From IMG/VR virus record IMGVR_UViG_3300012009_000262, positions 1 to 21,338 of that record: a DNA stretch of 21,338 bases. One strand, written 5' to 3'. Both the position numbers and the translations under genes were made by a program. Below are positions 3,329 to 21,224 of the stretch, one piece after another. The notes beneath the pieces are model-generated. The model was not told the origin of the DNA, searched no databases, and was given only the letters and a program-made list of their open reading frames with translations. Positions within the stretch are counted from its first letter, which is position 1. Every line of letters starts with the position of its first letter. The DNA is from a virus.

Positions 3329-3514
3329 ATGTTAATTATTCCTGTAAATGGTAATATTGAAAGAGCTCTTAAAAAGTATAAGAATAAGTATAATCGTACT
3401 GGTTTAGGATTAGAATTGCGTCAACGCCAAGAATATAATAAAAAATCTGTGAAATTAAGAGAACAGAAAATTAAGGCAATTTATGCTCAAAAAATGAAAA
3501 ATCAAGAAGAATGA
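3329..3514 (+). CDS. rpsU: Phage-encoded ribosomal protein bS21
   Basis: 61 residues that align along their full length with bacterial bS21, the small basic protein of the 30S platform near the 16S rRNA 3' end. Recognisable elements in order are M-L-I-I-P-V, N-I-E-R-A-L-K-K-Y-K, T-G, E-L-R-x-R-Q, K-K-S-V-K-x-R and K-A-I-Y-A-Q-K. It is slightly shorter than typical Bacteroidota versions, by two residues in the N-terminal loop and a few at the end. Tyr52 sits where Bacteroidota bS21 has the Tyr (about position 54) reported to help hide the anti-Shine-Dalgarno. The leader is A-rich with no GGAGG-like site. The stop overlaps the next start (ATGA, 3511-3514), implying translational coupling. Virus-encoded bS21 is known from large phages; the effect on host translation is inferred. 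Confidence 0.92.
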   Translation: MLIIPVNGNIERALKKYKNKYNRTGLGLELRQRQEYNKKSVKLREQKIKAIYAQKMKNQEE

Positions 3515-6159: not shown

Positions 6160-6639
6160 TTATCGGTAAGTACTAAAAATTTGTTGTGACTTTTGTCCCA
6201 AAGGAATTAAAGCTTGTTTATTAATTTTTTCGAACATTTCTACGGAAACCACTTCCACTTCTTGGAAATTACCTGTAGGTTGCGGATCAGTTAATGTTGG
6301 AGTTGATTGAGTTCTGACTACTTCATTTAAGTTCTCTTCCGCTAAATATTGGTTTAAGCCATTAGGATCTAAATCTTTTTTCTTTTTCCGAATTGGATTT
6401 TGATTATGAGAATTTTGAACCACTCCATTAATGCGGGTTTCAAATTCTACATAATTAGGATCCCAACCATCATTCACATTTTCTTGAATTTGGTATGATG
6501 AAACATCAGGAGTTTCATTCAAAGAAGGTAAATCACCGTATTGGGGGGTTTCATTCAAAGGTTTTAATTCCTCTTCTTCTTTGTTTTCTTGAATATTGCG
6601 GAATAAATTTAAATAATCTTCATTTAATTGTTCAGACAT
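6160..6639 (-). CDS. Acidic, largely disordered protein of unknown function
   Basis: 159 residues that I do not recognise, low in hydrophobic core residues and rich in Glu, Asn, Gln and Pro. A repeated phrase (L-N-E-T-P) occurs near residues 28 and 40, and an R-K-K-K-K patch lies near 84-88. The first residues contain Q-L-N-E and then L-F-R-N-I-Q-E, both matching the [LI]-x-E cleavage pattern of T4-type prohead proteases; this fits the idea of a packaged, processed internal or scaffold-like protein but is not proof. It is the last gene of the leftward block, with its own TATATATA element 22 nt upstream and an AAAGGA just before the start, unusual here. Its 3' end converges on the gp47-like gene with about 50 nt between. 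Confidence 0.65.
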   Translation of the reverse strand: MSEQLNEDYLNLFRNIQENKEEEELKPLNETPQYGDLPSLNETPDVSSYQIQENVNDGWDPNYVEFETRINGVVQNSHNQNPIRKKKKDLDPNGLNQYLAEENLNEVVRTQSTPTLTDPQPTGNFQEVEVVSVEMFEKINKQALIPLGQKSQQIFSTYR

Positions 6640-6661
6640 GTCCTTTCATTCTTTTTAATGG

Positions 6662-6669
6662 TATATATA
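6662..6669 (-). promoter_or_regulatory. TATATATA element upstream of the 159-aa gene
   Basis: TATATATA lies 22 nt before the ATG at 6639, read on the minus strand, and fits the spacing seen at other unit starts. It lies inside the short gap after the 371-aa gene, so the 159-aa gene may have its own transcript. Confidence 0.45.
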
Positions 6670-6686
6670 GGATTTTTAAACTCCCT

Positions 6687-7802
6687 TTAATCATAAGGTT
6701 GAAATTTTCTTATAGCTAAGGATTTTCTTTTTCTTCTATTTTTATTTACCAATTTTGGTTTTTTGAGTGGTGAAATTTCATGTGGTATACGAGGAGGGTT
6801 TAGATATTCCTGACTACCATATTTAGCCAAAGGAATAAACTTACTAGGTTTGTTATGGTTTTCAAAAATTTCTACTAAATATTCATTACCTTCAATTTTA
6901 ATTTTCAATTTTCGTTCCAATTCTTTCACAATAATTTTTAACATTGTTGGGCTAGGATAATCCCAAAAACCTATGATATGGTTTTTAGTCCAAATTCGAC
7001 CATCATAACGAGAAACTCCATATTCAAAATTTAACATATCTTCATGTTTACCACCCCAATGACCAATTTCTAAATGGGGTTCTATTGTTTCTCCTAGTTG
7101 AAAATATTTTTCATAGCCTGTAATCCAAGCAAAAGGAATGGCTTCTGAATCTTGATAGGTTAATTTTTTACCCCAAGGGGTAATTATTTGATTAATATCT
7201 TCGCTTAAAAAATCAGTATAATTAAGGATTAACTTCTCTTGTCTGATCCGCTGCTTCCAAACTGGAGTTATATCTTTAAAATTTTTTATGACTTTCTTTT
7301 TCTTTTTTAAAAGAGGTGATTTTTCATGCTCAGTTGGTTCGGGATCTACGGGTTGGGGTAAATAAGTTGAAAGAGGAACAAACTCAGAATTTAAATCTGA
7401 AGGTTTGTTGAAAACTTCTATTACCCAATCTGAATCATCAAAATCTACTTCATAATCCGTCTTTAATAAAACAGCTTCTTCAATATCTTCCAAAACTTTT
7501 TGGATCTTATTTTGAGGTGGATGTTCCCAAAAAGAAATTACTTTAGAATCTACCCATAATCGACCCGGGTAATCGAAACCAATTCTACCTTTTCGATCAT
7601 CTACAAAATTATGAGCATCTTGTTCAAACACTATCATTTCATAACGAGCTTCTTCAGGATCATCTTCAGGATCGTCGATAAGAACATAATTATTCGTCCA
7701 ATGGTAACCAAAACCAATGGCCTCAATATCCTCCCAAGTGAGAGGTTTATCTTGATAATTGGTATAATCCGCATTTTCATGTAATTTGTTCCAAATTGAC
7801 AT
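6687..7802 (-). CDS. Two-domain repeat protein (GR-[LI]-W / FW-[ED]-x-P domain), unknown function
   Basis: 371 residues built from two diverged copies of one domain I cannot name, at about 22-145 and about 215-345. Each copy has an E-A-I-G/P-F start, then G-R-L/I-W, then I-S/G-F-W-E/D-H/Y-P, a long amphipathic helix, a strand ending V/I-E-V/I-F, and a short end motif (F-[VI]-P-L-x-x-Y). A third copy is the 201-aa protein at 19922. Copy 1 is preceded by W-N-K-L-H-E and copy 2 by N-Y-T-D-F-L-S-E, a motif like the T4 capsid-targeting/protease site, so cleavage between the domains is possible. A K-K-K-K-K run precedes the second unit and the C-terminus is basic (N-R-R-K-R-K). The start overlaps the upstream 234-aa gene by 26 nt. 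Confidence 0.8.
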   Translation of the reverse strand: MSIWNKLHENADYTNYQDKPLTWEDIEAIGFGYHWTNNYVLIDDPEDDPEEARYEMIVFEQDAHNFVDDRKGRIGFDYPGRLWVDSKVISFWEHPPQNKIQKVLEDIEEAVLLKTDYEVDFDDSDWVIEVFNKPSDLNSEFVPLSTYLPQPVDPEPTEHEKSPLLKKKKKVIKNFKDITPVWKQRIRQEKLILNYTDFLSEDINQIITPWGKKLTYQDSEAIPFAWITGYEKYFQLGETIEPHLEIGHWGGKHEDMLNFEYGVSRYDGRIWTKNHIIGFWDYPSPTMLKIIVKELERKLKIKIEGNEYLVEIFENHNKPSKFIPLAKYGSQEYLNPPRIPHEISPLKKPKLVNKNRRKRKSLAIRKFQPYD

Positions 7803-8481
7803 AAGGTAGCTTACGAGTTTTTAAGTAATAAAGAAAAAACCTTTTCACGGTCTTTCTCCCATATATATTAATTAAATCTACTATATTTAAAGGTTTATTT
7901 ATAAAATCACTTATGGCTTCTTCAAAATTAAAAACTTCTCTTTTCAAATCACTTAAACCATCATCTCCTTTTACATCACTTAAATTAGCTACTTTTTTAA
8001 GGTCTTCGAAAAATACTTTTTCTATTTCTTCATATTCCGTAAGAAGCTGGTCTAATTTTCTTTTTTTAGCTGGGGTAGGTTGAAAATGTCCAGCTTTTAA
8101 AAATAAAATCGGATAGTTAACATCCAATAAATTAGCGATTTGGTTCAAATTAAGCTGTTGCCTTTCAATTTTCTCCCAAAATTCGCCAAAGTCATCACCC
8201 CTTTTTTTAAATTCATCCAAGATGAAATTTTTGTATAAATCACCATAGCTACTAAAAATGTAAATATTTTCGGGAGTAATTTGAAGAAAGAGATTATGTT
8301 TACGTGGATATTTTAGATAAGCAATAGCTAAGACTTCTTTGAAAGGGATTTCAAGCCATTGAGCGTTAGGATTAATTTGATAATCTCGTTCAATCATATA
8401 AAGCACTTCGCGAGGTAAACCAACCTCTGAAAGTGAAGATTTTTCATTTAAGAAAGATTGGTATAATTTTAATTTCTTCAT
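7777..8481 (-). CDS. Unknown protein with T4 capsid-targeting-like N-terminus
   Basis: 234 residues, not recognised. The N-terminus M-K-K-L-K-L-Y-Q-S-F-L-N-E resembles the T4 internal-protein capsid-targeting sequence (Y-Q-E-F-I-A-E in T4), which the prohead protease cuts after the Glu. The rest is a mixed alpha/beta protein with an aromatic strand region (about 60-85) and a basic/acidic helical middle (about 130-170). No catalytic motif is evident. It starts just after the SSB terminator with TATATATA six nt upstream of the start, and its end overlaps the next gene by 26 nt, so the two are probably translated together. An internal virion protein is a reasonable guess. Confidence 0.75.
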   Translation of the reverse strand: MKKLKLYQSFLNEKSSLSEVGLPREVLYMIERDYQINPNAQWLEIPFKEVLAIAYLKYPRKHNLFLQITPENIYIFSSYGDLYKNFILDEFKKRGDDFGEFWEKIERQQLNLNQIANLLDVNYPILFLKAGHFQPTPAKKRKLDQLLTEYEEIEKVFFEDLKKVANLSDVKGDDGLSDLKREVFNFEEAISDFINKPLNIVDLINIYGRKTVKRFFLYYLKTRKLPYVNLEQIT

Positions 8482-8487
8482 CCTTTT

Positions 8488-8495
8488 TATATATA
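8488..8495 (-). promoter_or_regulatory. TATATATA element upstream of the 234-aa gene
   Basis: TATATATA on the minus strand between the SSB terminator and the ATG at 8481. It sits only 6 nt from the start, closer than the usual 18-24 nt, so it is a weaker promoter candidate. Its position directly after a terminator does argue for a new transcript. Confidence 0.35.
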
Positions 8496-8497
8496 AA

Positions 8498-8526
8498 AAA
8501 AGCCAGTTAGAATCTAACTGGCTTTT
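8498..8526 (-). terminator. Rho-independent terminator of the SSB gene
   Basis: A 13-bp perfect stem (AAAAGCCAGTTAG paired with CTAACTGGCTTTT) around a 3-nt loop, followed on the minus strand by a run of T. It begins 24 nt past the SSB stop codon. The flanking A and T runs mean it could stop transcription in both directions. Confidence 0.9.
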
Positions 8527-8550
8527 ATCTTTAATATTATGATATTGATA

Positions 8551-9549
8551 TTATTCTTCATCATCCATGAAGAAATCATCTTCCGTCATTTCTACATTAT
8601 CTGGTTCATCGTCTAAAGAATCATCTACACTTTCGATCATATCATTAGAAGCGTTTTTAGCTTTTCTCTCTGCACCGGTAATATCTTGACCATTTAGAAT
8701 GGCTATGATATCATCTATTTTACCTTTAGTTTCTTCGCTCCAAGATACAGCTTCATATTTAGATAAATCAACAGCTTCATCTCGTTCAGTTAAAAAAGTT
8801 TTAATTTTCTTTTGAGCTTTAGCTTCTACTTTCCCTTCATTTACTGGGATAGGCACAAATTTCTTATTCTTTTCATTGTAAAGTTTAAGAGGTGAAGAGT
8901 CTTTAAAAGAAGAAGCGTCATAATTGGCATAGCCTGCTTTATCTTTAATGATAAGTACGAAATCTTTACCATTTACTAAATCATAAACATTACAAGGTTC
9001 ACCTGAAATTTCACCATTTCTTTCACTATTAATTTTCTCTTTAATGGTATAACCAAAAGGAAAAACTAAAATTTTACCTACTAAATCTGGTTTTTGTTCG
9101 TCTTCCAGAACTAAAACATAAGAATAATATTTAGTTTGACGAGAAATTAAATCAGATTTTTCAACGTCGGCTTGATTTTTACTATTTTTCAACTTCCAAA
9201 AAGTAGTGCAAAGTTCACATTTATTTTCTTCGAAGTTTTTACCACAGTCATAGTAGCCTGATAAATTAGCGTGACTTTTAAAATCAGCATAATGAATATG
9301 TTTTTCAATAGCTAACGGTCCTAATTTACCTGTTTCTAATACGTTAGGGAGAAAACGAATTACCGAACGGTAACCGGTTTTTCTGTCTTTCGCATCCTCT
9401 AGACGAGGACGATAAATACCATCCAAATTGGTGGTTTTTTTGTCAAATACACTAAGAGATTCCTCAGTGTCCATGTTAAATAAATCAACATTTTCTAATT
9501 CTTCCATGCTTTTAAAGCTTGTTTTTTGATGAGGCTTATTAAGTCTCAT
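8551..9549 (-). CDS. gp32-like single-stranded DNA-binding protein
   Basis: 332 residues with the plan of T4 gp32, the replisome and recombination SSB. A short basic N-terminus, which in gp32 mediates cooperativity, precedes an OB-type core carrying R-S-V-I-R-F-L-P-N (61-69). The zinc site has Cys102, Cys111 and Cys114 (C-x8-C-x2-C), with His84, His86 or His93 as the fourth ligand, matching H-C-C-C in gp32. Core strands around Y-S-Y-V-L-V and the later G-Y-A-N-Y-D segment also match gp32. The C-terminus (about 305-332) is almost entirely Asp/Glu, the usual protein-interaction tail. It is a monocistronic leftward gene with a terminator just after it. Its leader carries an 18-bp palindrome, which may matter because T4 gp32 represses its own mRNA. 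Confidence 0.9.
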   Translation of the reverse strand: MRLNKPHQKTSFKSMEELENVDLFNMDTEESLSVFDKKTTNLDGIYRPRLEDAKDRKTGYRSVIRFLPNVLETGKLGPLAIEKHIHYADFKSHANLSGYYDCGKNFEENKCELCTTFWKLKNSKNQADVEKSDLISRQTKYYSYVLVLEDEQKPDLVGKILVFPFGYTIKEKINSERNGEISGEPCNVYDLVNGKDFVLIIKDKAGYANYDASSFKDSSPLKLYNEKNKKFVPIPVNEGKVEAKAQKKIKTFLTERDEAVDLSKYEAVSWSEETKGKIDDIIAILNGQDITGAERKAKNASNDMIESVDDSLDDEPDNVEMTEDDFFMDDEE

Positions 9550-9573
9550 ATGGCTTTTGATGCTTTTGAAAAT

Positions 9574-9591
9574 TTTTGAAGGCCTTCAAAA
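9574..9591. promoter_or_regulatory. 18-bp perfect palindrome in the SSB leader
   Basis: TTTTGAAGGCCTTCAAAA is a perfect palindrome 25-42 nt upstream of the SSB start, flanked by a second inverted pair (GAAAATTT at 9568-9575 and AAATTTTC at 9593-9600). It could be a dimeric-protein operator or an mRNA hairpin controlling SSB translation. Confidence 0.5.
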
Positions 9592-9679
9592 TAAATTTTC
9601 TAAATCATATAAGAACACATTGAATAAAAGTTGTTTTTTATTTTGGCAACTTTTCAATCCAAGGCTTATACTACTCTCT

Positions 9680-9685
9680 TATATA
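9680..9685 (-). promoter_or_regulatory. TATATA element, possible SSB promoter
   Basis: On the minus strand this reads TATATAAGAG, about 130 nt upstream of the SSB start. If used, it gives a long leader that includes the 18-bp palindrome. Confidence 0.3.
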
Positions 9686-9755
9686 TTTTTAAAAATTAGC
9701 CTTTTTTTGACATTTTGTAAAAACCTCTATTTTTCAAGGTTTTTCAAAAACACCT

Positions 9756-9777
9756 AACCCTTATGACTTAAAGGGTT
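9756..9777. other. Hairpin-forming inverted repeat
   Basis: AACCCTT and AAGGGTT pair across an 8-nt loop, and the stem can extend by a wobble and one further pair. It lies between divergent genes, so it is either an attenuator or terminator on one leader or a protein-binding site. No clean T-run directly abuts it. Confidence 0.4.
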
Positions 9778-9838
9778 GGCTTATGTTAATTTTTTTTTCA
9801 AAAAAGTTTAATTTTTTTCGCGCCTATATAAATTTTAA

Positions 9839-9844
9839 TATATA
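9839..9844 (+). promoter_or_regulatory. TATATA element upstream of the 966-aa gene
   Basis: TATATA followed by G lies 21 nt before the ATG at 9866, and a second version (TATATAAAT, 9825-9833) lies 14 bp further upstream. The first fits the standard spacing, while the second is closer to the T4 late promoter TATAAATA. Confidence 0.5.
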
Positions 9845-9865
9845 GTTAAAATTTAAGAAACGTCG

Positions 9866-12766
9866 ATGGCTTTGAAAAGAACGATTGCTAATAATCAAGT
9901 AATCGTTAATCTCCCCACTGCTTATCAAGAAGCAGGTACTCGTAATAGTAGTTTGCTCATTAATAACTATGAGGACGAAAATGGTTACCTTGCTATTTTT
10001 ACGGAATTAGATACTCATCTTATGAAAGGGGATCGAGTTTTTATTTCTTCTCTGTCTTCCGTAACCACCTTAGATAACTATTTAACTTATTTTGAAAAAG
10101 ATAATTATCCTTTTACCCGTTATAATATGGGTTATGAGGTTTTAAATATAGATTTAGAACAAAATAAAGTAGTGTTGGATATTTTAATAGTTGAATTAGA
10201 GGATTCTTTCAATCTAATCGGAAGTTACTTAACTAAAATTAGAGGGGAAAAAGTTAATGTTAGTAATAGTGAAATTGATTCGGTTTTCTTCAAAGAAGGA
10301 ATATTTAAAAACAATCAATATAAACAAAGTATTATTATTGAAGGTCAAGTAACGGGTGGTACTTATCTTTCTAAATATAATTTTGATTATCAATCCTTAA
10401 AAAGAAATGAGGAGGAAATTATTTTCAATCAGAACAATGATAGTTATGGTTATAATTATTTAGGCAACCGTTTAGCTTTAGATGAAACGGCTTATGATTT
10501 ATTTTTGAATATTACTAGTGCTACTACTTCTACTAATGATAATACTGTAGATAGTGATCCTTGGCATCTTTATGATAATAGTAGTACCAATTATTGGAAA
10601 AGTAATGGTGTAACTCCTCAATGGGTAACATGGTCTTTCGAAAAAGCTTTAACTTTAATTGGTTTGACCGTTTATTGTTTTAGTGATGATAATATCGGTA
10701 ATATCGGTTTACCTAATGATCTTGATATTCAAGGTTGGAATGGTTCCAATTGGAATACTATTACGGGTTTTACCAATATTTGGGTGGGTTCTGGTTCGGC
10801 TAATGAACAAAATTTTACGTTAGAATTTGATAATAATATCACTTATAGTAAATATAGATTATATATTTACACAGGTTATATTGGAAATTCTGATACCGAA
10901 ACTAACACTGAACTTTTATTTAGAGAAGTGGTTCCTATGGTAAAAGAGTTTCCAGAAATTGGAGGTTCCTTTGGTAAAATCTTCTTTGCGGAAAATTTAT
11001 TAGATGGTAATACCGGTTTTAGTGAACGTAATATTCCTTGGGAACCTAATGATAGTTTTTTTATTACCGGTGCTGGTAAAGATTATTGGTGGGGTAGTAA
11101 TGATAATTACACTACAACTAATCGGTTTGAAATGATGAGTGATTTAGGGTTCGCTGGTGAAACTTATGATAGATATATTTTAACGTTATCTGGTTATAGT
11201 GATGGAACTGATATGTATGTTATGTTTCGAGATGGTAGTGATAATATAGCCTCTACTGACCAAACTTATACCAACTTTGGTCAATTTGAATCTCTTGATT
11301 TAACTTGTTTAGTTAATACGGACATCTACCTCATTCTAGGTGGAGATTCAATTGATAACAATGAAGTAGCCTATATGTATGGATTATTTCTCTATCAAGA
11401 AAAATTAGAATATCAACCCCTTAAATTATTTGATAAGGATTCATCCACCGAATTAATTAGTATTAACGAAACTTCTAAGGAACATACTGTAGAATTTGAT
11501 TTTCATAATCAACCTCAAATTATAACGAGCTTTAATTATCGCATTAATAATAAAATCTTTAGTAGTCCTTTTGATATTTATTCCTCCTTTAATCCTAGAG
11601 GAACTGTTTCCATAGAAGGTTATAACAATGGTTCTTGGGAAATTATTGAAAGTTTTTCTTTTGATGGTAGTGGGTTGTATAAAAATAATCTTAGTAAGGT
11701 ACAAGCTTTAAATCGTTTTAGATTAAGATTTGTTACTAATACCACTACTTTAATTTTAAGTGAAGTCGAACTTTTACGCAAAGCTAATCAAAGTGCTTAT
11801 AATGTAGAAATTGAAAATGGTAATTTTTATTTCTGTAATTTACAAGGAGAGGAAAATACTATCAGAGGCGGTTATTTTGAAAATTGTATCGTAGATAATT
11901 ATATCATTCAAGGTGGATTTTTTCTCAATTGTTATATTCAAAGTAATTGTGTCTGGGAAGGTGGTACTTTCAAAGGTTTTGGATCTTCTTTTGGACCAGA
12001 TACTTTTTATGATGGTAATTGGAATTCCGGAACTTTTTTTGATAAAACATGGGTCTCAGGTAATTTTAATGCGGGACTTTTCCTTAATTCACAATGGTTG
12101 AATGGTCGTTTCAATGGCGGTACTTTCTCAGCTTCTACTTGGGCTGACGGTTTCTTTGATGAAGGTCTATTTTTAGATTCTATGTGGAGTGCGGGTACTT
12201 TTAATTCTGGTACTTTTAATGATTCCTTTTGGATTACCGGATTATTTAATGATGGTGATGTTGATAATTCTACTATTTGGAGTGGGGGAACTTTTCGTAA
12301 TGGTCGCTTTAATCGTTCTACGTGGTATAATGGTGATTTTTGGGATGGTAGTTTTACTAATTCCGTATGGTTGGCTGGTAATTTTTACGGTGGTAATTTT
12401 AATAACTCTAATTGGACTGGGGGGACCTGGTATGACGGCACCTTCACTAATTCTAATTGGTTAAATGGAACTTGGTATAATGGTACCTTTGAAAATTCTT
12501 TCTGGGAAGATGGTTCTTGGTATAATGGTAATTTTAATAGTTCCGATTGGAAATATGGTACTTGGTATAATGGAGAATGGAATAATTCTTCTATTAATAA
12601 AGCTACCCCCACTTCTTATATTAATTGGAAATTTGGAGCCTTTAATGGGGGATATATAGATCCTGATAGTGAAGTTAATTGGAGTGGCGGTACCTGGAAT
12701 TTGGGAGAATTCGTAGCTAGAGATAATACGGATATTCGTATTATTTTTCCTAATGCTGAAATATAG
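9866..12766 (+). CDS. Large fibre/appendage protein: discoidin-like domains plus W/F-G repeats
   Basis: 966 residues with no signal peptide, consistent with a virion appendage. Domains in order: an unfamiliar N-terminal part (1-210); a discoidin (F5/8 type C)-like jelly roll at about 215-350 with Y-D-N-S-S-T-N-Y-W and a later Y-R-L-Y-I-Y strand; a further beta domain at about 355-510; a second discoidin-like domain at about 515-640 with L-F-D-K-D-S-S-T-E and F-R-L-R-F; and a C-terminal beta-helix-like part (about 650-940) made of W-x-x-G / F-x-x-G repeats. Discoidin-like domains usually bind glycans, so host-surface recognition is likely. It heads the rightward structural operon, is preceded by TATATA 21 nt upstream, and the next gene follows 7 nt later. 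Repeats sharing the W-Y-N-G motif also occur at the end of that next protein. Confidence 0.85.
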   Translation: MALKRTIANNQVIVNLPTAYQEAGTRNSSLLINNYEDENGYLAIFTELDTHLMKGDRVFISSLSSVTTLDNYLTYFEKDNYPFTRYNMGYEVLNIDLEQNKVVLDILIVELEDSFNLIGSYLTKIRGEKVNVSNSEIDSVFFKEGIFKNNQYKQSIIIEGQVTGGTYLSKYNFDYQSLKRNEEEIIFNQNNDSYGYNYLGNRLALDETAYDLFLNITSATTSTNDNTVDSDPWHLYDNSSTNYWKSNGVTPQWVTWSFEKALTLIGLTVYCFSDDNIGNIGLPNDLDIQGWNGSNWNTITGFTNIWVGSGSANEQNFTLEFDNNITYSKYRLYIYTGYIGNSDTETNTELLFREVVPMVKEFPEIGGSFGKIFFAENLLDGNTGFSERNIPWEPNDSFFITGAGKDYWWGSNDNYTTTNRFEMMSDLGFAGETYDRYILTLSGYSDGTDMYVMFRDGSDNIASTDQTYTNFGQFESLDLTCLVNTDIYLILGGDSIDNNEVAYMYGLFLYQEKLEYQPLKLFDKDSSTELISINETSKEHTVEFDFHNQPQIITSFNYRINNKIFSSPFDIYSSFNPRGTVSIEGYNNGSWEIIESFSFDGSGLYKNNLSKVQALNRFRLRFVTNTTTLILSEVELLRKANQSAYNVEIENGNFYFCNLQGEENTIRGGYFENCIVDNYIIQGGFFLNCYIQSNCVWEGGTFKGFGSSFGPDTFYDGNWNSGTFFDKTWVSGNFNAGLFLNSQWLNGRFNGGTFSASTWADGFFDEGLFLDSMWSAGTFNSGTFNDSFWITGLFNDGDVDNSTIWSGGTFRNGRFNRSTWYNGDFWDGSFTNSVWLAGNFYGGNFNNSNWTGGTWYDGTFTNSNWLNGTWYNGTFENSFWEDGSWYNGNFNSSDWKYGTWYNGEWNNSSINKATPTSYINWKFGAFNGGYIDPDSEVNWSGGTWNLGEFVARDNTDIRIIFPNAEI
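12050..12592 (+). repeat. Twelve 45-bp coding repeats (15-residue W-x-x-G-x-F-x-x-G units)
   Basis: Residues 729-909 of the 966-aa protein form twelve consecutive units, all 15 residues except the fifth (16). Each starts with Trp (729, 744, 759, 774, 789, 805, 820, 835, 850, 865, 880, 895) and follows W-x-x-G-x-[FW]-x-x-G-x-[FW]-x-x-S-x. This equals three pentapeptides per unit with an aromatic at each central position, resembling pentapeptide-repeat right-handed beta helices but with Trp/Phe in place of Leu/Phe. Looser repeats extend back to about 11870. Confidence 0.9.
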
Positions 12767-12773
12767 ATAAATT

Positions 12774-15044
12774 ATGAAAGAAATAAAATATTTAAGAAAT
12801 AAATACTCTAAAACCTATTGTTATTCTAGTACGAAAAACCAATTAAGAGTTTCTACAAAACCTTTTCATTATCTTTCTGGTAATAGTTGGGAAGAAATTG
12901 AAATTAATTTTCAAGATGAAGGACAACACCTTATTAATTGGACGAATGAAGTTACAGTTGGTTTCCGAAAGGATAAACAACTTTATAAATTCTTAGGTTT
13001 AAGGTATAATTACGATCATCAATTTGAACTTACTCCACATTCAATTGAAATTGATGATGAAGAAAAAATAACTCAATCTACATTCCAAGAAGTGTTCCTA
13101 AAAGAAGGACCGGTGAAAAAATTTTATCATCATTTACCTGATATTAGTTTTCTTACCATAATCAAAGAACAATCCTTATCTAATTACGTTAAAATTGAAG
13201 AACCCTTAGAAAAAGTTGATATTACTTATCAACTTCACTTAAAAGGTTTAGTGGTAACTAATGATTTAATAAATAATAAATATCTACCTGATAAAAATGG
13301 AACTTTTATTCTTAGTGGAGCTAGTGAAGAACAAATCTTCTTTATTCGAAAACCAAAGGTTTTTGATAGTGATAATAAGACTTATCAAGATTTAATGAGC
13401 CATAGTTTATATTTGAGTGGGGACACTCTTTTTTATACTAAATCTTCCTCTCCCGATTTTAACCTTAATAATTTTGAATATCCTATTTATGTTGATATTC
13501 AAAGTTTTTTTGAAAGAGATAGTTTTAATGGTATTTTAAAATTTGATAGTTCTGATAATGGTCTTGATGATTGGTATTATTTGAGAAATTCTCAACTTTG
13601 TGGTAATACTATCAATCCTTACTATTCTTCCGATGCTACTTACGGTAAATTAGGTTTGATTAGATGGCCTTATTCTACTGTAGGTCAATATTCTTGTTCT
13701 CGTATTTTTATTAATTGGAAAGACGTAAATATTCCCTCTAATGCTATCATAAATAATGATGCGTTTATTTCTGGTATCATTGACGCAAAGAGTTTTCTTA
13801 AGCCAAATAATCCTAACTATAATAGTTATAATCCTCAAGTGGTTTTAGTAGACAGTAATCATAATCCTAACACTCTCACTACTGATAATAATAATTTTTA
13901 CCTTACAGGTTCTACTTTTGCTTCTACACCCTTTGCCACCGGAGACGAAACAATTTCATTAGATGAAAGTGTTTTTAACATTATTCGTCAAAATATTTTA
14001 CAAGGTAATTTCACATTACAAATGGCTATAATGGATTATGATTATGATTATTTAGGTGCTAGACCGGCTCCGGTAGGAACTGATCCTCCATTAGATATAA
14101 ATGGAGCTAAGATGGAATTTAGAGAATCAGATGATATTACTGATCCTGATGAACCTCTTTGGTATGAACTTTATCTTAATTATAAAGTAGGTATTTCAGG
14201 AATAGAAATGATTCCTAGTTCGGGATCTACGTCTAATTGGACTACTGATGAATGGAGTTTTAATTCAGCCAATACTAATATAGTTAGTCAAATAGAAGAT
14301 TTTGATGTAATCAGTTTATTTACTTTGGGTGAAATTCCTTTCTCTTTAACACCTTGGGATAAACCTTCAGGTACTACACAATATTTAGGAGGTCGAGAAT
14401 ATATCATTACTTTAGACAATGATACTTTAAGTGATATTCAATATAATTCTTTAATTAAAGTAGAAGATTCTGATGATGTTTATGATTTTGTGGTCGAAGT
14501 GGCTGGTACCGGTCATACTTGTGAAGTGACTAGTAAAAGTGTTTCGGTGGGAAATATTGTTTATGGTTTACATGATTTTTATCAATCTGGGGGTACCTAT
14601 GAATCCATTCCAAATGGAAGTTGGCCTTGGCGTTCTAAATATAAAGATCGCTCTAGTTTTATAGATTCTAATTCCGCCGTAACTAGTACGGCTAGAGGTT
14701 TAGATTTTATTATTTCAGGAGTTAGTTATAAATCAAGAATTTACCCTGGAGATAGTAATGATTACACTACATTAAAATTTACAGACATTTTGGATTGGGT
14801 ACCTCCTAATAATTATCAACATAAAAAATTATACTGTGATCGCTTATCCAAGGCCGATAATAAGAAATGGTATAACGGTTCTTTCCGCAATGGGTATTTT
14901 TCCGCTTCTTGGTATGGTGGTCAATGGGTATTAGGAGAATGGTTTGGGCTTAATCAAAATAATATTAATAAGTTCCAAGTTCCAGGTAATAATCCCCAAA
15001 TACCTTATTTACCGGATAATAATAAAGAATTTCCTACAATATGA
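12774..15044 (+). CDS. Second large appendage/tail-fibre-like protein
   Basis: 756 residues, beta-rich and rich in Asn, Ser, Tyr and Asp, with no signal peptide. The region about 240-410 resembles carbohydrate-associated DNRLRE-type beta domains, with strands such as G-L-I-R-W-P and R-I-F-I-N-W followed by I-P-S-N-A-I-I. Residues about 699-723 carry the same W-Y-N-G-S-F / W-Y-G-G-Q-W motif that forms the repeats of the preceding protein, so the two share a module and probably belong to the same structure. It begins 7 nt after the 966-aa gene and its TGA overlaps the ATG of the next gene, indicating one operon. Receptor-binding or baseplate appendage is the best guess; no enzymatic motif is visible. 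Confidence 0.8.
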   Translation: MKEIKYLRNKYSKTYCYSSTKNQLRVSTKPFHYLSGNSWEEIEINFQDEGQHLINWTNEVTVGFRKDKQLYKFLGLRYNYDHQFELTPHSIEIDDEEKITQSTFQEVFLKEGPVKKFYHHLPDISFLTIIKEQSLSNYVKIEEPLEKVDITYQLHLKGLVVTNDLINNKYLPDKNGTFILSGASEEQIFFIRKPKVFDSDNKTYQDLMSHSLYLSGDTLFYTKSSSPDFNLNNFEYPIYVDIQSFFERDSFNGILKFDSSDNGLDDWYYLRNSQLCGNTINPYYSSDATYGKLGLIRWPYSTVGQYSCSRIFINWKDVNIPSNAIINNDAFISGIIDAKSFLKPNNPNYNSYNPQVVLVDSNHNPNTLTTDNNNFYLTGSTFASTPFATGDETISLDESVFNIIRQNILQGNFTLQMAIMDYDYDYLGARPAPVGTDPPLDINGAKMEFRESDDITDPDEPLWYELYLNYKVGISGIEMIPSSGSTSNWTTDEWSFNSANTNIVSQIEDFDVISLFTLGEIPFSLTPWDKPSGTTQYLGGREYIITLDNDTLSDIQYNSLIKVEDSDDVYDFVVEVAGTGHTCEVTSKSVSVGNIVYGLHDFYQSGGTYESIPNGSWPWRSKYKDRSSFIDSNSAVTSTARGLDFIISGVSYKSRIYPGDSNDYTTLKFTDILDWVPPNNYQHKKLYCDRLSKADNKKWYNGSFRNGYFSASWYGGQWVLGEWFGLNQNNINKFQVPGNNPQIPYLPDNNKEFPTI

Positions 15045-15865
15045 AAAAAACTATGAAAAAAACCTTAATCCAAATTTGGACCTTTTTGCGAGAACCCAAA
15101 AACCAACGATTATTAATGATTATAGCCACCGCTATTTTAGCCTTCTTTATAATTAAAAGTTGTAATCATAACGAAGCTCTCCAATTAAAAAATAAAAGAT
15201 TAAACTATAATTTAACGGCTGCTCAAGACACTGTGAAAGTCGTTAAAAATAAAAATGGAGAGTTACAAACTGAAATTAGTTCTTATGTTACTACCACCGA
15301 AGAGTTAAAAATTATTAATCAATATTTAAATCAAGAAGTAACGGCTCAAAAAGGTCATGTTATTTATATTTCTTCTCTGAATATTAAATTACAGAATAAA
15401 ATTGTAAAATTGAAAGATAGTCTCTCACAAGAAGAACCTATAGCTGAAAATGATAGTACATTTAAAATTCCTTGGAATTTTAATCAAATTTATGATTCTC
15501 TTAATTATCGTTTATTAGCAGGCCAAACTCGTTTTATAGCAACTAGTGATGGTAAAATTCTTAATTTAGGAACTAAATTAATGGAAGATGAATGGAGTTT
15601 TAATTTAACAACAGGTTTACGGGAAGAAAAGGGTAAATTGCGCATTTTTGCTAAATCGGATTATCCCGGTTTAACAATTCCTCAAATGCGAGGTTCCTTA
15701 ATTGATCCTAATGAATCAAAAGTAATTAAAAGTCTAATGCAAAAGAAACATTGGTTTCCTAATACTTTTAGTGTGGGGCCTCAATTAGGATTAGGTTATG
15801 GTTTTCCTGGACGTTGGGGGATTTACGTAGGAGTCGGAATTCAATATAATATATATCAATGGTGA
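15041..15865 (+). CDS. Membrane-anchored coiled-coil protein, possible spanin
   Basis: 274 residues. A basic N-terminus is followed by one transmembrane helix (about 22-40, L-L-M-I-I-A-T-A-I-L-A-F-F-I-I) ending in K-S-C. A long heptad-rich coiled coil runs from about 45 to 130, then a mixed domain. The C-terminal 30 residues alternate Gly and aromatic/hydrophobic residues and end Y-N-I-Y-Q-W, like the last strands of an outer-membrane beta barrel. An inner-membrane helix, periplasm-spanning coil and outer-membrane-like end fit a spanin-type lysis protein, but a tail-associated membrane protein is also possible. The start is overlapped by the preceding stop (ATGA), and a second in-frame ATG lies 12 nt later after a near-exact duplication of the start (M-K-K-T-M-K-K-T). 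Confidence 0.75.
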   Translation: MKKTMKKTLIQIWTFLREPKNQRLLMIIATAILAFFIIKSCNHNEALQLKNKRLNYNLTAAQDTVKVVKNKNGELQTEISSYVTTTEELKIINQYLNQEVTAQKGHVIYISSLNIKLQNKIVKLKDSLSQEEPIAENDSTFKIPWNFNQIYDSLNYRLLAGQTRFIATSDGKILNLGTKLMEDEWSFNLTTGLREEKGKLRIFAKSDYPGLTIPQMRGSLIDPNESKVIKSLMQKKHWFPNTFSVGPQLGLGYGFPGRWGIYVGVGIQYNIYQW

Positions 15866-15907
15866 TTCTTTCTTTTTCATCAAAAGAAAATGGGATTATT
15901 TATTTAA

Positions 15908-15913
15908 TATATA
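15908..15913 (+). promoter_or_regulatory. TATATA element upstream of the Gln-rich gene
   Basis: TAATATATAAAA, with the TATATA 21 nt before the ATG at 15935, at the start of a three-gene unit after a 69-nt gap. Confidence 0.5.
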
Positions 15914-15934
15914 AAAATAAAATAAACAAAGATC

Positions 15935-16480
15935 ATGAAACATTTGACTGAACAAAATGAATTCAAAAAGAAAAAACAAAATAAGTTGGTTACGGAAATG
16001 GTTCACACCGTCGGTAATGATTATTTAGTAGTCACTGATATTCCTATTCCTAAATCTTTGGTTAATGCTTTTATTAAAAAAGTAGCGGATACCAGTGGTC
16101 AAGATATTAAAGCCATGTATGGTGATCAATACTTAGCTGAAAAATTAGTAGAATACGTAAAAGTTAATTTAATTAATATTGACAATCTACCAGTTTCTAT
16201 TGTTTTGGGTGAAGATTATAATAAAGGTGTTCAAGTTCAACCTCAAGCTCAAACTCAAATTGATGCTCAAACTCAAATTGATGTTCAAGATACGGCAGCT
16301 CAAATTCCAGCTCAAGAAGGCGGTACTCAAGGTACTCAGGTTCAAGGCCAAGCCGTTCAAGGTCAAGGTCAAGTAATTCAAGGCCAAGGAGTTCAAGGTA
16401 CTCAAACTCAAACCACTCAAACTCAAGGACAAGTAGTAGCTCCACAAGGTCAAACTCCACAAGGTAGTCAAGAAATTTAA
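15935..16480 (+). CDS. Small protein with alternating Gln-rich C-terminal tail
   Basis: 181 residues in two parts. Residues 1-98 form a small globular domain I do not recognise, with a basic N-terminal patch (K-K-K-K-Q-N-K) and two helices around K-S-L-V-N-A-F-I-K-K and Y-L-A-E-K-L-V-E-Y-V. Residues 99-181 are low complexity, with Gln at nearly every second position (for example V-Q-V-Q-P-Q-A-Q-T-Q) and Gly, Thr and Val between. The N-terminus contains H-L-T-E, a possible [LI]-x-E processing site. It is the first gene of a unit with the 179-aa protein and the DHH protein. The tail could be a flexible linker or a self-assembling segment. Open frames on other strands and frames over the tail are artefacts of its repetitive codons. 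Confidence 0.75.
   Translation: MKHLTEQNEFKKKKQNKLVTEMVHTVGNDYLVVTDIPIPKSLVNAFIKKVADTSGQDIKAMYGDQYLAEKLVEYVKVNLINIDNLPVSIVLGEDYNKGVQVQPQAQTQIDAQTQIDVQDTAAQIPAQEGGTQGTQVQGQAVQGQGQVIQGQGVQGTQTQTTQTQGQVVAPQGQTPQGSQEI
16229..16477 (+). repeat. Low-complexity Gln-alternating coding tract
   Basis: The DNA has a strong six-base rhythm in which every second codon is usually CAA. It encodes residues 99-181 of the 181-aa protein. Gln is encoded almost only by CAA, so DNA repeat expansion probably built the tract. Confidence 0.85.
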
Positions 16481-16496
16481 GAAAGAAATAATTAAA

Positions 16497-17036
16497 ATGG
16501 GTTTACAAAAGTTTAATGATTTTGTAGGACAAGCGGAGTCAAAATTAGAAAAGAAAGTAACCTCTGATCGAAAAAAAACTTCACCAAAAAAGAGTATCAG
16601 TTCAAAATCGAAAGAAAAGAACGAAGAAAACTCTTCAAATATTGAAGAACAACTTTTAGAGAAATTGCATTTTTTCGGCCAAGTTGTGAAGTTTCCAACT
16701 AATTTTCAACCTTCGGTAGCTTATAAATTATTGGAAAATAATCAAATTTCCAAACAGAAATTACATTATATTATTACCGAGCAACCAAATAATTCTTTAT
16801 TGGTAGTCAAATATAATGAAAAAGCTAATGTCCGTTTAAAAGAATTTGTATCAACTTTAATAACTCATTATCAACAGAATGAACAATTAAAATATCATTT
16901 AAAAAACATATTAGTTGAGGGTAATGATACTTTTTCTATCATTCGTCAAATTCCTAATTTATCTTTTAAAGGTCGTCCTTTTATTCAAATTATAAATGAT
17001 GATTTGATGAGTTTGTTGAGTAAAATAAAAACTTAA
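16497..17036 (+). CDS. Unknown protein with basic linker
   Basis: 179 residues, not recognised. The N-terminus (M-G-L-Q-K-F-N-D-F-V-G-Q-A-E) loosely resembles the F-x-x-F-L-x-E pattern found in neighbouring proteins. Residues about 17-45 are a Lys/Ser-rich, probably disordered linker. Residues about 50-179 form a mixed alpha/beta domain with hydrophobic strands (L-L-V-V-K-Y, F-I-Q-I-I) and no obvious catalytic residues. It is 16 nt after the Gln-rich gene and 3 nt before the DHH gene, so it is part of the same operon and may partner one of them. Confidence 0.75.
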   Translation: MGLQKFNDFVGQAESKLEKKVTSDRKKTSPKKSISSKSKEKNEENSSNIEEQLLEKLHFFGQVVKFPTNFQPSVAYKLLENNQISKQKLHYIITEQPNNSLLVVKYNEKANVRLKEFVSTLITHYQQNEQLKYHLKNILVEGNDTFSIIRQIPNLSFKGRPFIQIINDDLMSLLSKIKT

Positions 17037-17039
17037 AAT

Positions 17040-18545
17040 ATGCAATTTTTAAAGAATTTTGAAAATTTTAATCAAACCTTATATGAATCCGGATTAAGAG
17101 GTATTCGCTCTTTAGCTGACCGCTATGATCAAGCTGAAATTTATTTCCATATTGATTTAGATGGAGTTACTAGTGCTATTGCCATGAAAGAATATCTTAA
17201 ACGATATGATATTAAAACCGTAGATTTTCATGTTATTCAATATGGTGGTCGAGAATTTGATGTTTTAAAACCTGAAAAAGACACTTTACCGGTTTTAGTA
17301 GATTTTGCTCACGGTAAAACTGAATTTAGAATTCACACCGATCATCATGATCATCAAGTAGGAGTAAAAACGAAAGCTAAACATTTTAAAACTTCGAAAA
17401 GTAATCTCGCTACTATTTCGGGAGAAATTGCTACTTCTGATATTTTTCCAGCAGAAGACGTACATATTATTAATACGGTAGATTCGGCTGATTTTGCTAG
17501 TCAAAACATTACTCCAGACGATATCATTCAGTTTATTTATCAAACCGATAAAAATTTATCGGCTCCTAAAAATCATCTTAAATTAGGATTAGTAGTTAAT
17601 AAACTCATTTTAGCCTATAAAAATAAGGTTAAACCTCAAATAAAACCTGGTAAAGAAAAACCCCGTAATGTTAGTTTCTTAGAAGAATTGGTAAGTAAAA
17701 GTCAACCTAGTTTGGTTTCTATGTATCATAATATTAAAAAAATTGCTAATAATATGAATTTAGATCCTGCCGAAGATTTAAAACGTTATGCAGATATTTA
17801 TCAACGTCGTTTACGAGGTGAAATTCTAAGTGATGAAGGTGAAAGACCTATTGATTATCGTGAAAAAACATCTTTTAATAAAGTTGTGTTGAAAAATGGT
17901 ATTTTAACCCAATATGGTGGTCCTCGAATGTTTAAGACAGGCTCTTATGATCGTTATGCTTCTTTTAAAGAATATCCTGAAGCTAAAGCTTTCATTATGG
18001 CTTGGCCTATGGGATTGGTACAAATCAGTAAAAACCCTTTTCAACCTAAAGAAGAAATAATCAAAGATGTTCATCTAGGAGAATTAAAGGATGAAATTTT
18101 GGCTTCAAATGAAGAAAAATTGAAAAACATTCGCATCACTCTAAATAATATGAAAAGAATTAGCGAATTAGATATTATGAAAAAATATAATAAACGTTAT
18201 AACCCCGAATTATATGCGGATGAAAAATTTGGTTATCGTTTAGAAGATTTTGAAAACTTATTCCAAAATAAATCCCGAGGTTTAACTAAAGAAAATCGTG
18301 CTGAAATTAAAAAAATAATGGAGGAAAAATATCAACATTTAAACCCAGAAGACAAGAAAAAACTGAATCAAATTTCAGTTTCAGCTTGGGATGTTATTAA
18401 CTCTTTTTCCGGAGGCCATAAAGATATTACTAATATTTCTGGGCTTAGTTATTTACCTAATTCCGTAGCTTGGGTTAAAAGTTTATCCAGACAAGCTTTC
18501 TTTAAATTAGACCAGATATTAAATAAACAAAAAGCTTCTGCTTAA
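17040..18545 (+). CDS. DHH-family phosphoesterase
   Basis: 501 residues. The DHH catalytic domain is clear: H37-I-D39-L-D41-G binds metals, D88 follows a hydrophobic strand, D101-H102-H103 is the name-giving motif, and D148 with D151 lies in V-D-S-A-D. A G-G-H motif at 458-460 near the C-terminus is like the substrate-binding loop of DHHA1 domains (RecJ, NrnA, GdpP). All metal ligands are present, so a manganese-dependent phosphodiesterase acting on short oligonucleotides, single-stranded DNA or cyclic dinucleotides is expected; which one cannot be decided here. About 250 residues between the two parts are longer than in NrnA. The N-terminus contains F-x-x-F-N-Q-T-L-Y-E, possibly a processing/targeting peptide. 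It is the last gene of the unit; its TAA shares TTAA with the convergent gene's stop. Confidence 0.88.
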   Translation: MQFLKNFENFNQTLYESGLRGIRSLADRYDQAEIYFHIDLDGVTSAIAMKEYLKRYDIKTVDFHVIQYGGREFDVLKPEKDTLPVLVDFAHGKTEFRIHTDHHDHQVGVKTKAKHFKTSKSNLATISGEIATSDIFPAEDVHIINTVDSADFASQNITPDDIIQFIYQTDKNLSAPKNHLKLGLVVNKLILAYKNKVKPQIKPGKEKPRNVSFLEELVSKSQPSLVSMYHNIKKIANNMNLDPAEDLKRYADIYQRRLRGEILSDEGERPIDYREKTSFNKVVLKNGILTQYGGPRMFKTGSYDRYASFKEYPEAKAFIMAWPMGLVQISKNPFQPKEEIIKDVHLGELKDEILASNEEKLKNIRITLNNMKRISELDIMKKYNKRYNPELYADEKFGYRLEDFENLFQNKSRGLTKENRAEIKKIMEEKYQHLNPEDKKKLNQISVSAWDVINSFSGGHKDITNISGLSYLPNSVAWVKSLSRQAFFKLDQILNKQKASA

Positions 18546-19921: not shown

Positions 19922-20527
19922 ATGGCTTGTGATCAGTTATATTATGAGGGTAAGGTCATACCTTATAATAATACTTCAGGTATTATTCCTTTTGCTTATT
20001 CTTGGGTTGAAAACCATTATGAAATAGGTTTGGGAGAAGATAGTTTTTCGCATAGTACTATTCCTTTCAAATATCAAACTTCAGCCTTTAAAAATGGTCG
20101 TTTGTGGATACCTTTTAAAATTTTAACTTTTTGGGAATATCCTTTACCTGCTCGTTGGTCTCGTTTTTTAGAAGAATTGACAACGATTTTAAATGAGGAA
20201 TATCCTGAATTTGAAATAGATTTTCAAGATCCGACCTGGCGAGTAGAAGTTAAAATTGAAAATGATGAAGGTCCAGCTTATCCTAATAAGATTCCCACCG
20301 AAAAAATTTCTGATACCGAAGACTATAAATTAATTCCTTTCCGTTATTATCGTGGTAGTAATTTAGACGTTTTAGCTCGCTTAAGACATTTAGCCTCTCA
20401 AAAAGATAAAGAAGCTTTAAAAAAATTAGGCTATTTAAAAAAAACTAACCACTCTAAAAATATAAAATGGCGTCAACGTCTCTCTCAAGAGAAATATATT
20501 TTAAATTTTAAATCCTTTCTAAAATAG
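19922..20527 (+). CDS. Single-domain paralogue of the 371-aa protein (GR-[LI]-W / FW-[ED]-x-P domain)
   Basis: 201 residues. It contains one copy of the unrecognised domain found twice in the 371-aa protein at 7802-6687: G-I-I-P-F-A-Y-S-W, then N-G-R-L-W, then L-T-F-W-E-Y-P, a long helix, a strand V-E-V, and K-L-I-P-F-R-Y. Its C-terminal 20 or so residues (W-R-Q-R-L-S-Q-E-K-Y-I-L-N-F-K-S-F-L-K) match the linker that joins the two domains of the larger protein (W-K-Q-R-I-R-Q-E-K-L-I-L-N-Y-T-D-F-L-S-E) but stop where that motif ends. It therefore looks like the first half of a two-domain protein whose second half was lost. A terminator follows at once. Confidence 0.8.
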   Translation: MACDQLYYEGKVIPYNNTSGIIPFAYSWVENHYEIGLGEDSFSHSTIPFKYQTSAFKNGRLWIPFKILTFWEYPLPARWSRFLEELTTILNEEYPEFEIDFQDPTWRVEVKIENDEGPAYPNKIPTEKISDTEDYKLIPFRYYRGSNLDVLARLRHLASQKDKEALKKLGYLKKTNHSKNIKWRQRLSQEKYILNFKSFLK

Positions 20528-20781: not shown

Positions 20782-20985
20782 TTATTTTTTAAGGTTCTCT
20801 TTAACTTTCTGTTGTAAATTCTTAAATACTTTTTTTCGAGTGACTTTTAAATTTGAATAATTACAATAAAAACGATCGGAAAAGATACCAGTTGCTACAT
20901 GTTTAGAAATTACTATCATGTTTGATTTTTGATCTGGTGCTTGATAATCTAAAATGAAAGTTTCACATTCACAAGGTTTAATCAT
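20782..20985 (-). CDS. Small basic protein of unknown function
   Basis: 67 residues. The N-terminal half has two close cysteines (C5 and C7 in K-P-C-E-C-E) and another near residue 41; the C-terminal third is strongly basic (R-K-K-V-F-K-N, ending E-N-L-K-K). I do not recognise the family. The start overlaps the stop of the upstream gene in an ATGA arrangement, so the two are translationally coupled. A small nucleic-acid-binding protein is possible but unsupported beyond charge. Confidence 0.6.
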   Translation of the reverse strand: MIKPCECETFILDYQAPDQKSNMIVISKHVATGIFSDRFYCNYSNLKVTRKKVFKNLQQKVKENLKK

Positions 20986-21224
20986 AAATATGATTTGATT
21001 TTTGTTTGTTCTTGTTTCAACAATTTTTCTAAACCAAAATGTTTAGGTTCAATATTCAATAATTCTTCCCAATCTACCCATTTATAACCTTCACTTTCCC
21101 AATCTAAATCTGGAATAAATTCTCCGGGTAGAAGACCTAAAAAATTATGATATTCAAAAGTTTGATTAGGAATGCGGTAAACATAGTTAAATAAAATCAT
21201 ATAATTTGTCATAAAATAAACCAT
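20982..21224 (-). CDS. Nudix hydrolase C-terminal remnant lacking the Nudix box
   Basis: 80 residues. From about residue 18 on it matches the last part of Nudix hydrolases: a Y-R-I-P-N-Q-T-F-E-Y-H-N-F-L-G strand pair, then G-E-F-I-P-D-L-D-W-E-S-E-G-Y-K-W-V, then E-L-L-N-I-E-P-K-H-F-G-L. The catalytic Nudix box (G-x5-E-x7-R-E-x-x-E-E), normally upstream, is absent, and the preceding 100 bp encodes the end of a different gene, so the N-terminal half is missing. It is either a decayed gene or a trimmed domain reused for binding. The first 15 residues are hydrophobic and may be new sequence. It is coupled to the following 67-aa gene. Confidence 0.55.
   Translation of the reverse strand: MVYFMTNYMILFNYVYRIPNQTFEYHNFLGLLPGEFIPDLDWESEGYKWVDWEELLNIEPKHFGLEKLLKQEQTKIKSYL

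Follow-up and report, generated by a model that had tools for sequence, protein, structure and literature searches.

Do the proteins of this virus fragment include a set that would be carried in the phage head and delivered with the DNA? T4 provides the precedent, in that its internal proteins Ip1-3 form a payload of host-takeover and counter-defence proteins (PMC12373910), and in phiKZ and SPN3US internal head proteins are cut by the prohead protease after Glu and ejected with the DNA (PMC5694885). A sequence-only reading of the fragment, a stretch of 21,338 bases referred to here as the window, had proposed that a leader of the T4 internal-protein kind recurs on unrelated window proteins, one of them of the DHH type, and that these proteins are packaged in the head.

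In this paper we follow the leader through the window and through complete genomes of its relatives, together with the predicted cut site, protease, scaffold and upstream sequences. We consider it probable that these N-terminal leaders target proteins to the capsid, much as the leaders of T4 internal proteins do, and that an unusually large set of cargo proteins bears them.

Genomes and methods

The nearest relatives of the window proteins are found in uncultured huge phages with complete genomes of 634–735 kb. Those larger than 634 kb belong to the Mahaphage clade, and their predicted hosts are Bacteroidetes (PMC7162821). The window DHH protein has relatives in LR745206 and LR756502, the single-strand DNA-binding protein shows 44-48% identity to proteins of LR756501, LR756504, LR756502 and LR745206, and the B12-type ribonucleotide reductase is 58% identical to that of LR745206. 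About half of the window ORFs have homologues in LR745206 or LR756502. Because the nearest relatives of its proteins are such huge phages, the window is a piece of the genome of a huge, T4-related phage that belongs to that group or lies near it.

LR745206 (W01; 634,780 bases) and LR756502 (W02; 642,428 bases) were read whole, and 883 and 916 ORFs were called. A leader profile of 12 residues was trained on these two genomes, with the window excluded, and was then applied to the window, where 22 ORFs were scored.

Genome-wide enrichment of the leader

The capsid-leader proposal had been staked on N-terminal enrichment across a whole genome, and in both complete relatives such enrichment was found by a wide margin. 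The strict pattern [FYH]xx[FY][ILV]xE occurs within the first 25 residues of 22 of the 883 ORFs in W01 and 27 of the 916 in W02, against about 4-5 in shuffled or internal stretches, and an unsupervised motif search on the two genomes returned a fuller leader, K-[Y/H]-[L/I]-K-x-[Y/F]-x-x-F-x-E. Each genome also predicts the leaders of the other: at 8 bits, a profile trained on W01 found 172/916 ORFs in W02 (10-14 expected), and one trained on W02 found 143/883 in W01 (4-8 expected). With the combined profile, 164/883 ORFs in W01 and 193/916 in W02 are tagged, that is, about one protein in six.

After removal of the first 30 residues the tagged ORFs fall into 155 (W01) and 172 (W02) separate families, and 97 tagged proteins of W01 lack a W02 orthologue, so the leader is not inherited along one gene family. 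The tag calls are concordant in only 45 of the 87 W01/W02 orthologue pairs in which either member is tagged. Codon use within the leader is close to the genome background, which points to selection on the protein and not on the DNA, and lends no support to a DNA-level signal, such as a promoter or ribosome site, inside the leader.

Other members of the clade that were sampled word the leader differently: MIKKYIQFINEA and MIKTFDEFINES in W07 (735 kb), MKYLKLFED in W08 and MKYIKSYENFIFE in W09 (462 kb). Scored with the leader profile, the genomes of T4, Lak, MaF61 and MA9V-1 were not clearly enriched as a whole; phiKZ gave only a few profile matches and no de novo motif. A literature search, with subscription papers outside its reach, did not return any description of leaders of this kind from huge phages.

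Predicted cut site, protease and scaffold

The final residues of the leader are [I/L/F]-x-E, and S, A or N comes next. Of 326 tagged proteins, 88% have a hydrophobic-x-Glu close to the N-terminus (shuffled sequences, 58%). In 54% of the tagged proteins the Glu is followed by S, A or N; in untagged proteins K, I and L are the commonest residues at that place. This sequence geometry is the one that a protease of T4-like specificity would need.

The sequence-only reading had suggested looking for a gp21-like protease elsewhere in the genome. A search for Peptidase S77 gave no match in the window and was also silent on its control genomes; in the relatives, weak Peptidase S77 matches were obtained. 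In W01 (198546-200669) and W02 (225272-227371) the gp21-like protease is fused to a long scaffold-like region that holds ten repeats, spaced by 14 residues, of the form Y-x-E-Y-[I/L/V]-x-E, with the unit Y-x-E-Y-[I/L]-A-E-N-L-D-K; its Y-x-E-Y-[I/L]-A-E matches the leader unit. The next gene in both genomes encodes a gp23-type capsid protein, which has, shortly ahead of its conserved region, EFHSINE|N in W01 and EFHQINE|N in W02. The same protease–scaffold arrangement is present in W07 and W08, with 14-15 copies of the motif.

As a capsid-targeting tag, the leader would make a protein resemble a scaffold repeat during head assembly, a mimicry suggested by the matching units, so that the protein would be gathered into the core of the prohead. 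The gp21-type prohead protease would then cut after the leader Glu while destroying the scaffold and trimming the capsid protein, and the freed cargo, predicted to include counter-defence and host-takeover enzymes, would remain in the head and enter the next host along with the DNA. A different role, as a localisation tag that works independently of the protease and directs proteins elsewhere, for instance to the membrane, to the site of replication or to a different virion part such as the tail, with the Glu left uncut, would agree with the differences in leader wording between genomes and with cleavage being a prediction; but the geometry of the cut site, the residue following the Glu and the identity of the leader with the repeat of the scaffold and with the site in the capsid protein argue against it, and we regard such a role as unlikely.

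Late-type boxes and timing

A de novo search of the sequences 5' of tagged genes returned TTAATATATA, a box of the TATATA type that resembles the T4 late box, TATAAATA. Among W01 genes with an upstream gap it precedes 46/51 tagged and 91/255 untagged genes, and in W02 58/64 and 95/248, so that about 90% of tagged genes have the box against 36–38% of untagged ones (Fisher p about 1e-13 to 1e-14). Within the window a late-type box precedes the gene of the 234-aa protein and likewise those of the 181-aa and 159-aa proteins. The genes of the DHH and 371-aa proteins are further along these runs; the single-strand DNA-binding protein and ribonucleotide reductase genes are without a box. These upstream sequences suggest that tagged genes would be expressed together with the late (head) genes.

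The distance from the end of the box to the start codon is often no more than about 5 bases (in W01 and W02, and at 8488-8495 in the window), and many late mRNAs of tagged genes may thus be leaderless. This spacing, with the strong association between leader and box, would suit a leader that is merely a start signal of late genes, helping the translation of mRNAs with a near-absent 5' UTR and having no part in packaging. We think this decidedly unlikely, since the genes for capsid, portal, terminase, sheath and protease lie behind the box yet encode no leader, the choice of synonymous codons within the leader is close to background, and a start signal does not predict either a conserved Glu-Ser at residues 8-16 or a matching repeat in the scaffold.

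RNA ligase 1 carries the leader in both W01 and W02, and in W01 the late box is directly upstream. Its W08 counterpart has no leader, begins at the conserved domain and has a TAnnTTTG-type sequence 5' of it; from this comparison the leader looks like an extension added ahead of the conserved domain.

Leaders in the window

All peptides quoted in the sequence-only reading were found in the window translations. Its claim of a leader common to the listed proteins held for the 234-aa and DHH proteins, each of which scores at least 12 bits with the profile from other genomes (Table 1), and it failed for two others. The 179-aa protein scores 1.4 bits and has orthologues without a leader, and the FKSFLK at the C-terminus of the 201-aa protein is the end of a shared domain, with no recognisable second domain or E-site beyond it. 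The 159-aa protein is weak by score, although it has an I-Q-E site and an upstream late-type box, and the internal NYTDFLSE of the 371-aa protein is not significant alone, although it sits at a junction of homologous domains. A third leader of at least 12 bits was found on the 181-aa protein, which is absent from the earlier list and whose orthologues in W01 and W02 also start with the leader (MKHIRTYENY... and MKHIRQFESY...).

Table 1. Positions in the window of candidate leaders, late-type boxes and predicted cargo; bit scores are from the profile trained on W01 and W02
Feature	Position	Strand	Basis
234-aa protein, N-terminal leader MKKLKLYQSFLNE	8443..8481	-	13.9 bits; gene 7777-8481
Late-type TATATATA box, 6 bases 5' of 234-aa gene	8488..8495	-	Upstream-box analysis
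181-aa protein, N-terminal leader MKHLTEQNEF	15935..15964	+	13.3 bits; tagged W01/W02 orthologues; gene 15935-16480
Late-type AATATATA box before the 181-aa/179-aa/DHH gene run	15906..15913	+	Upstream-box analysis
DHH protein, N-terminal leader MQFLKNFENFNQTLYE	17040..17087	+	12.3 bits; orthologue leaders with Glu aligned
DHH protein, remainder, predicted cargo	17088..18545	+	Weak PF01368 match, motif residues kept
371-aa protein, internal leader-like NYTDFLSE	7200..7223	-	9.2 bits; domain junction; gene 6687-7802
371-aa protein, N-terminus MSIWNKLHE, weak candidate site	7776..7802	-	Aligned with the internal site through the domain duplication
159-aa protein, N-terminus with LFRNIQE, weak candidate leader	6586..6639	-	6.0 bits; gene 6160-6639
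Late-type TATATATA box 5' of 159-aa gene	6662..6669	-	Upstream-box analysis

That the window matches are accidental, [LI]-x-E being common in proteins rich in Lys, Glu and Leu, is most unlikely, for although this loose pattern is frequent and several examples of the sequence-only reading are not separable from chance, three of the 22 ORFs reach at least 12 bits against a mean of 0.03 in composition-matched shuffled N-termini (none of 3000 shuffles reached three) and two of these three ORFs have tagged orthologues. Chance is contradicted for the 234-aa, 181-aa and DHH proteins, and is not for the 159-aa and 371-aa proteins. As candidates for capsid-targeted cargo in the window the first three rank best, with the 371-aa and 159-aa proteins weaker.

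The DHH orthologues in the two relatives start with MISKYNQFINEEVGLRNI and MLRKYGQFINEEVGFKNL, with the leader Glu aligned. The window protein matches PF01368 with an E of 0.0006, short of the curated cut-off, and H-x-D-L-D-G-V and D-H-H-D are invariant across the three orthologues; on this weak match, 17040-18545 would encode a DHH-family protein with its motif residues intact. A profile of the three orthologues found no relative among solved structures, and with a mean pLDDT of 34 the single-sequence AlphaFold model of the protein was of low quality. Annotated phages yielded no relative of either the 234-aa or the 371-aa protein, and pattern scans of viral contigs with the DHH, 234-aa and 756-aa proteins gave no confirmed relative.

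Two tandem copies of one domain make up the 371-aa protein, and the 201-aa protein (19922-20527) consists of the same domain, of which no further relatives turned up. NYTDFLSE lies just ahead of the second copy of the domain, and in an alignment of the two copies it matches the L-H-E with which the first begins, an arrangement which is suggestive only: cleavage at both sites would free two similar proteins. In W01, an Acb1-like/exonuclease fusion was seen by eye to have SINE|N between its domains.

Predicted cargo

Most of the tagged proteins are without a known family. Those with one include Acb1-like proteins, a SMODS-associated NUDIX, other NUDIX proteins, T4 RNA ligase 1 and a 2H phosphoesterase, and further tagged kinds are guanylate cyclase-like, radical SAM, methyltransferase, lysozyme-type and DHH proteins. 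The clade has four Acb1-like proteins, identified by modest-scoring matches, and three of them bear the tag. Few T4-homologous ORFs carry the tag: 3/31 in W01 (NudE, RNA ligase 1 and a doubtful helicase match) and 3/27 in W02 (lysozyme, NrdC.10 and RNA ligase 1). The tag on the W01 gp41 helicase homologue was judged a chance match. By analogy with T4, the tagged set fits a payload of host-takeover and counter-defence proteins, a fit that does not amount to proof.

A C-terminal tag

At the opposite end of proteins the same unsupervised search detected R-[D/N]-x-K-[I/L]-x-x-[I/L]-[L/G], a motif lying no more than a few residues from the stop. It is present on 177 ORFs of W01 and 192 of W02, otherwise unrelated small proteins that belong to 175 and 187 families, and it is rare on T4-homologous genes. 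The N-terminal and C-terminal tags occur together on 13 (W01) and 6 (W02) proteins, against 33 and 40 expected. Genes with the C-terminal tag tend to follow TAnnTTTG-type sequences, not the late-type box. TAnnTTTG, of the Bacteroidetes vegetative -7 type, is read here as an early-type promoter, and the C-terminal tag tends to mark genes of this apparently early type. The window has no clear case of it; W08 has a variant.

Comparison with known systems

The huge-phage leaders resemble those of T4 internal proteins in being short, in standing at the N-terminus of otherwise unrelated proteins, in ending Y/F-x-x-F-[I/L]-x-E and in occurring, in the complete relatives, with a gp21-type protease. 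In the T4 record IpII and IpIII begin MKTYQEFIAEA, essentially the same as the scaffold and leader unit. Unlike those of T4, the huge-phage leaders are extended to K-[Y/H]-[L/I]-K-x-[Y/F], and the leader unit is itself the repeat of the scaffold to which the protease is fused. T4 leaders score below zero with the huge-phage profile, so the likeness to T4 is one of architecture and site and not of close sequence.

The Sphingomonas phage PAU, a cultured T4-related jumbo phage, also has leaders: 14 of its proteins begin MKT[L/I]xxL[Y/F]E, where none is expected, several of them at 107-113 kb around the portal, protease, scaffold and capsid genes, and one is annotated 'internal capsid protein'. 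PAU differs from the huge phages in the wording of the leader, in having far fewer tagged proteins and in having separate protease and scaffold genes. In phiKZ and SPN3US, by contrast, the propeptides are mostly long (more than 100 residues for several) with S-x-E or A-x-E motifs, and no short leader common to scores of proteins was reported there (PMC5694885).

At the sequence level, the huge-phage leaders thus have the features of the T4 capsid-targeting leader and appear to be a variant of it, and packaging, cleavage and injection would follow by analogy with T4. We favour capsid targeting because of the cross-genome enrichment, the unrelated families, the background codon use, the cut-site geometry, the scaffold repeats, the late-type boxes, the kinds of cargo, the contrast between the RNA ligase orthologues and the PAU leaders near head genes. 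Counting against it are the number of cargo kinds, 150-190 tagged proteins compared with the ten or so internal proteins reported from T-even phages (PMC12373910), the limited agreement of tags between orthologues, the scores of the T4 leaders below zero, and the window fragment itself, in which the search found no protease. The idea first drawn from the window has gained from the genome-wide counts, scaffold repeats, cut-site geometry and promoters, while about half of its listed examples have been lost.

A broader proposal, which we judge to stand at about even chances, is that the largest phages load their heads with more than 100 pre-made proteins by means of a leader that copies the scaffold repeat, and so deliver ready anti-defence enzymes (Acb1-like, NUDIX, tRNA-repair RNA ligase and perhaps DHH), while early-type proteins carry the mutually exclusive C-terminal tag, about 40% of the proteome being sorted by two end tags. 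If the capsid-targeting reading is right, the first dozen residues would suffice to label as head cargo roughly every sixth gene of the largest phages, almost all of which lack a known function. Such labels would make of these genes a set of candidates for injection at infection that is open to test, and one likely to yield new counter-defence proteins. They would also explain what the huge volume of the head is used for, and would provide a readable address label for loading chosen proteins into phage capsids in the laboratory. The injected content of huge phages becomes directly testable by proteomics.

Other genes of the window

Four further window genes were noted. The gene at 3329-3514 encodes a 61-aa product like ribosomal protein S21, with orthologues in W01 and W02. 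A 212-aa protein (33-671) has acidic tandem repeats, E-E-D-N-L, at its N-terminus, and the remainder past the repeats has W01 and W02 orthologues. The ORF at 20982-21224 (80 aa) matches only the C-terminal half of a NUDIX hydrolase and is possibly a degraded or split gene. The 966-aa protein at 9866-12766, which has pentapeptide-like repeats (G-x-F/W-x-x-G) in its C-terminal region and is related to large proteins in W02 and W07, is probably a structural or fibre protein.
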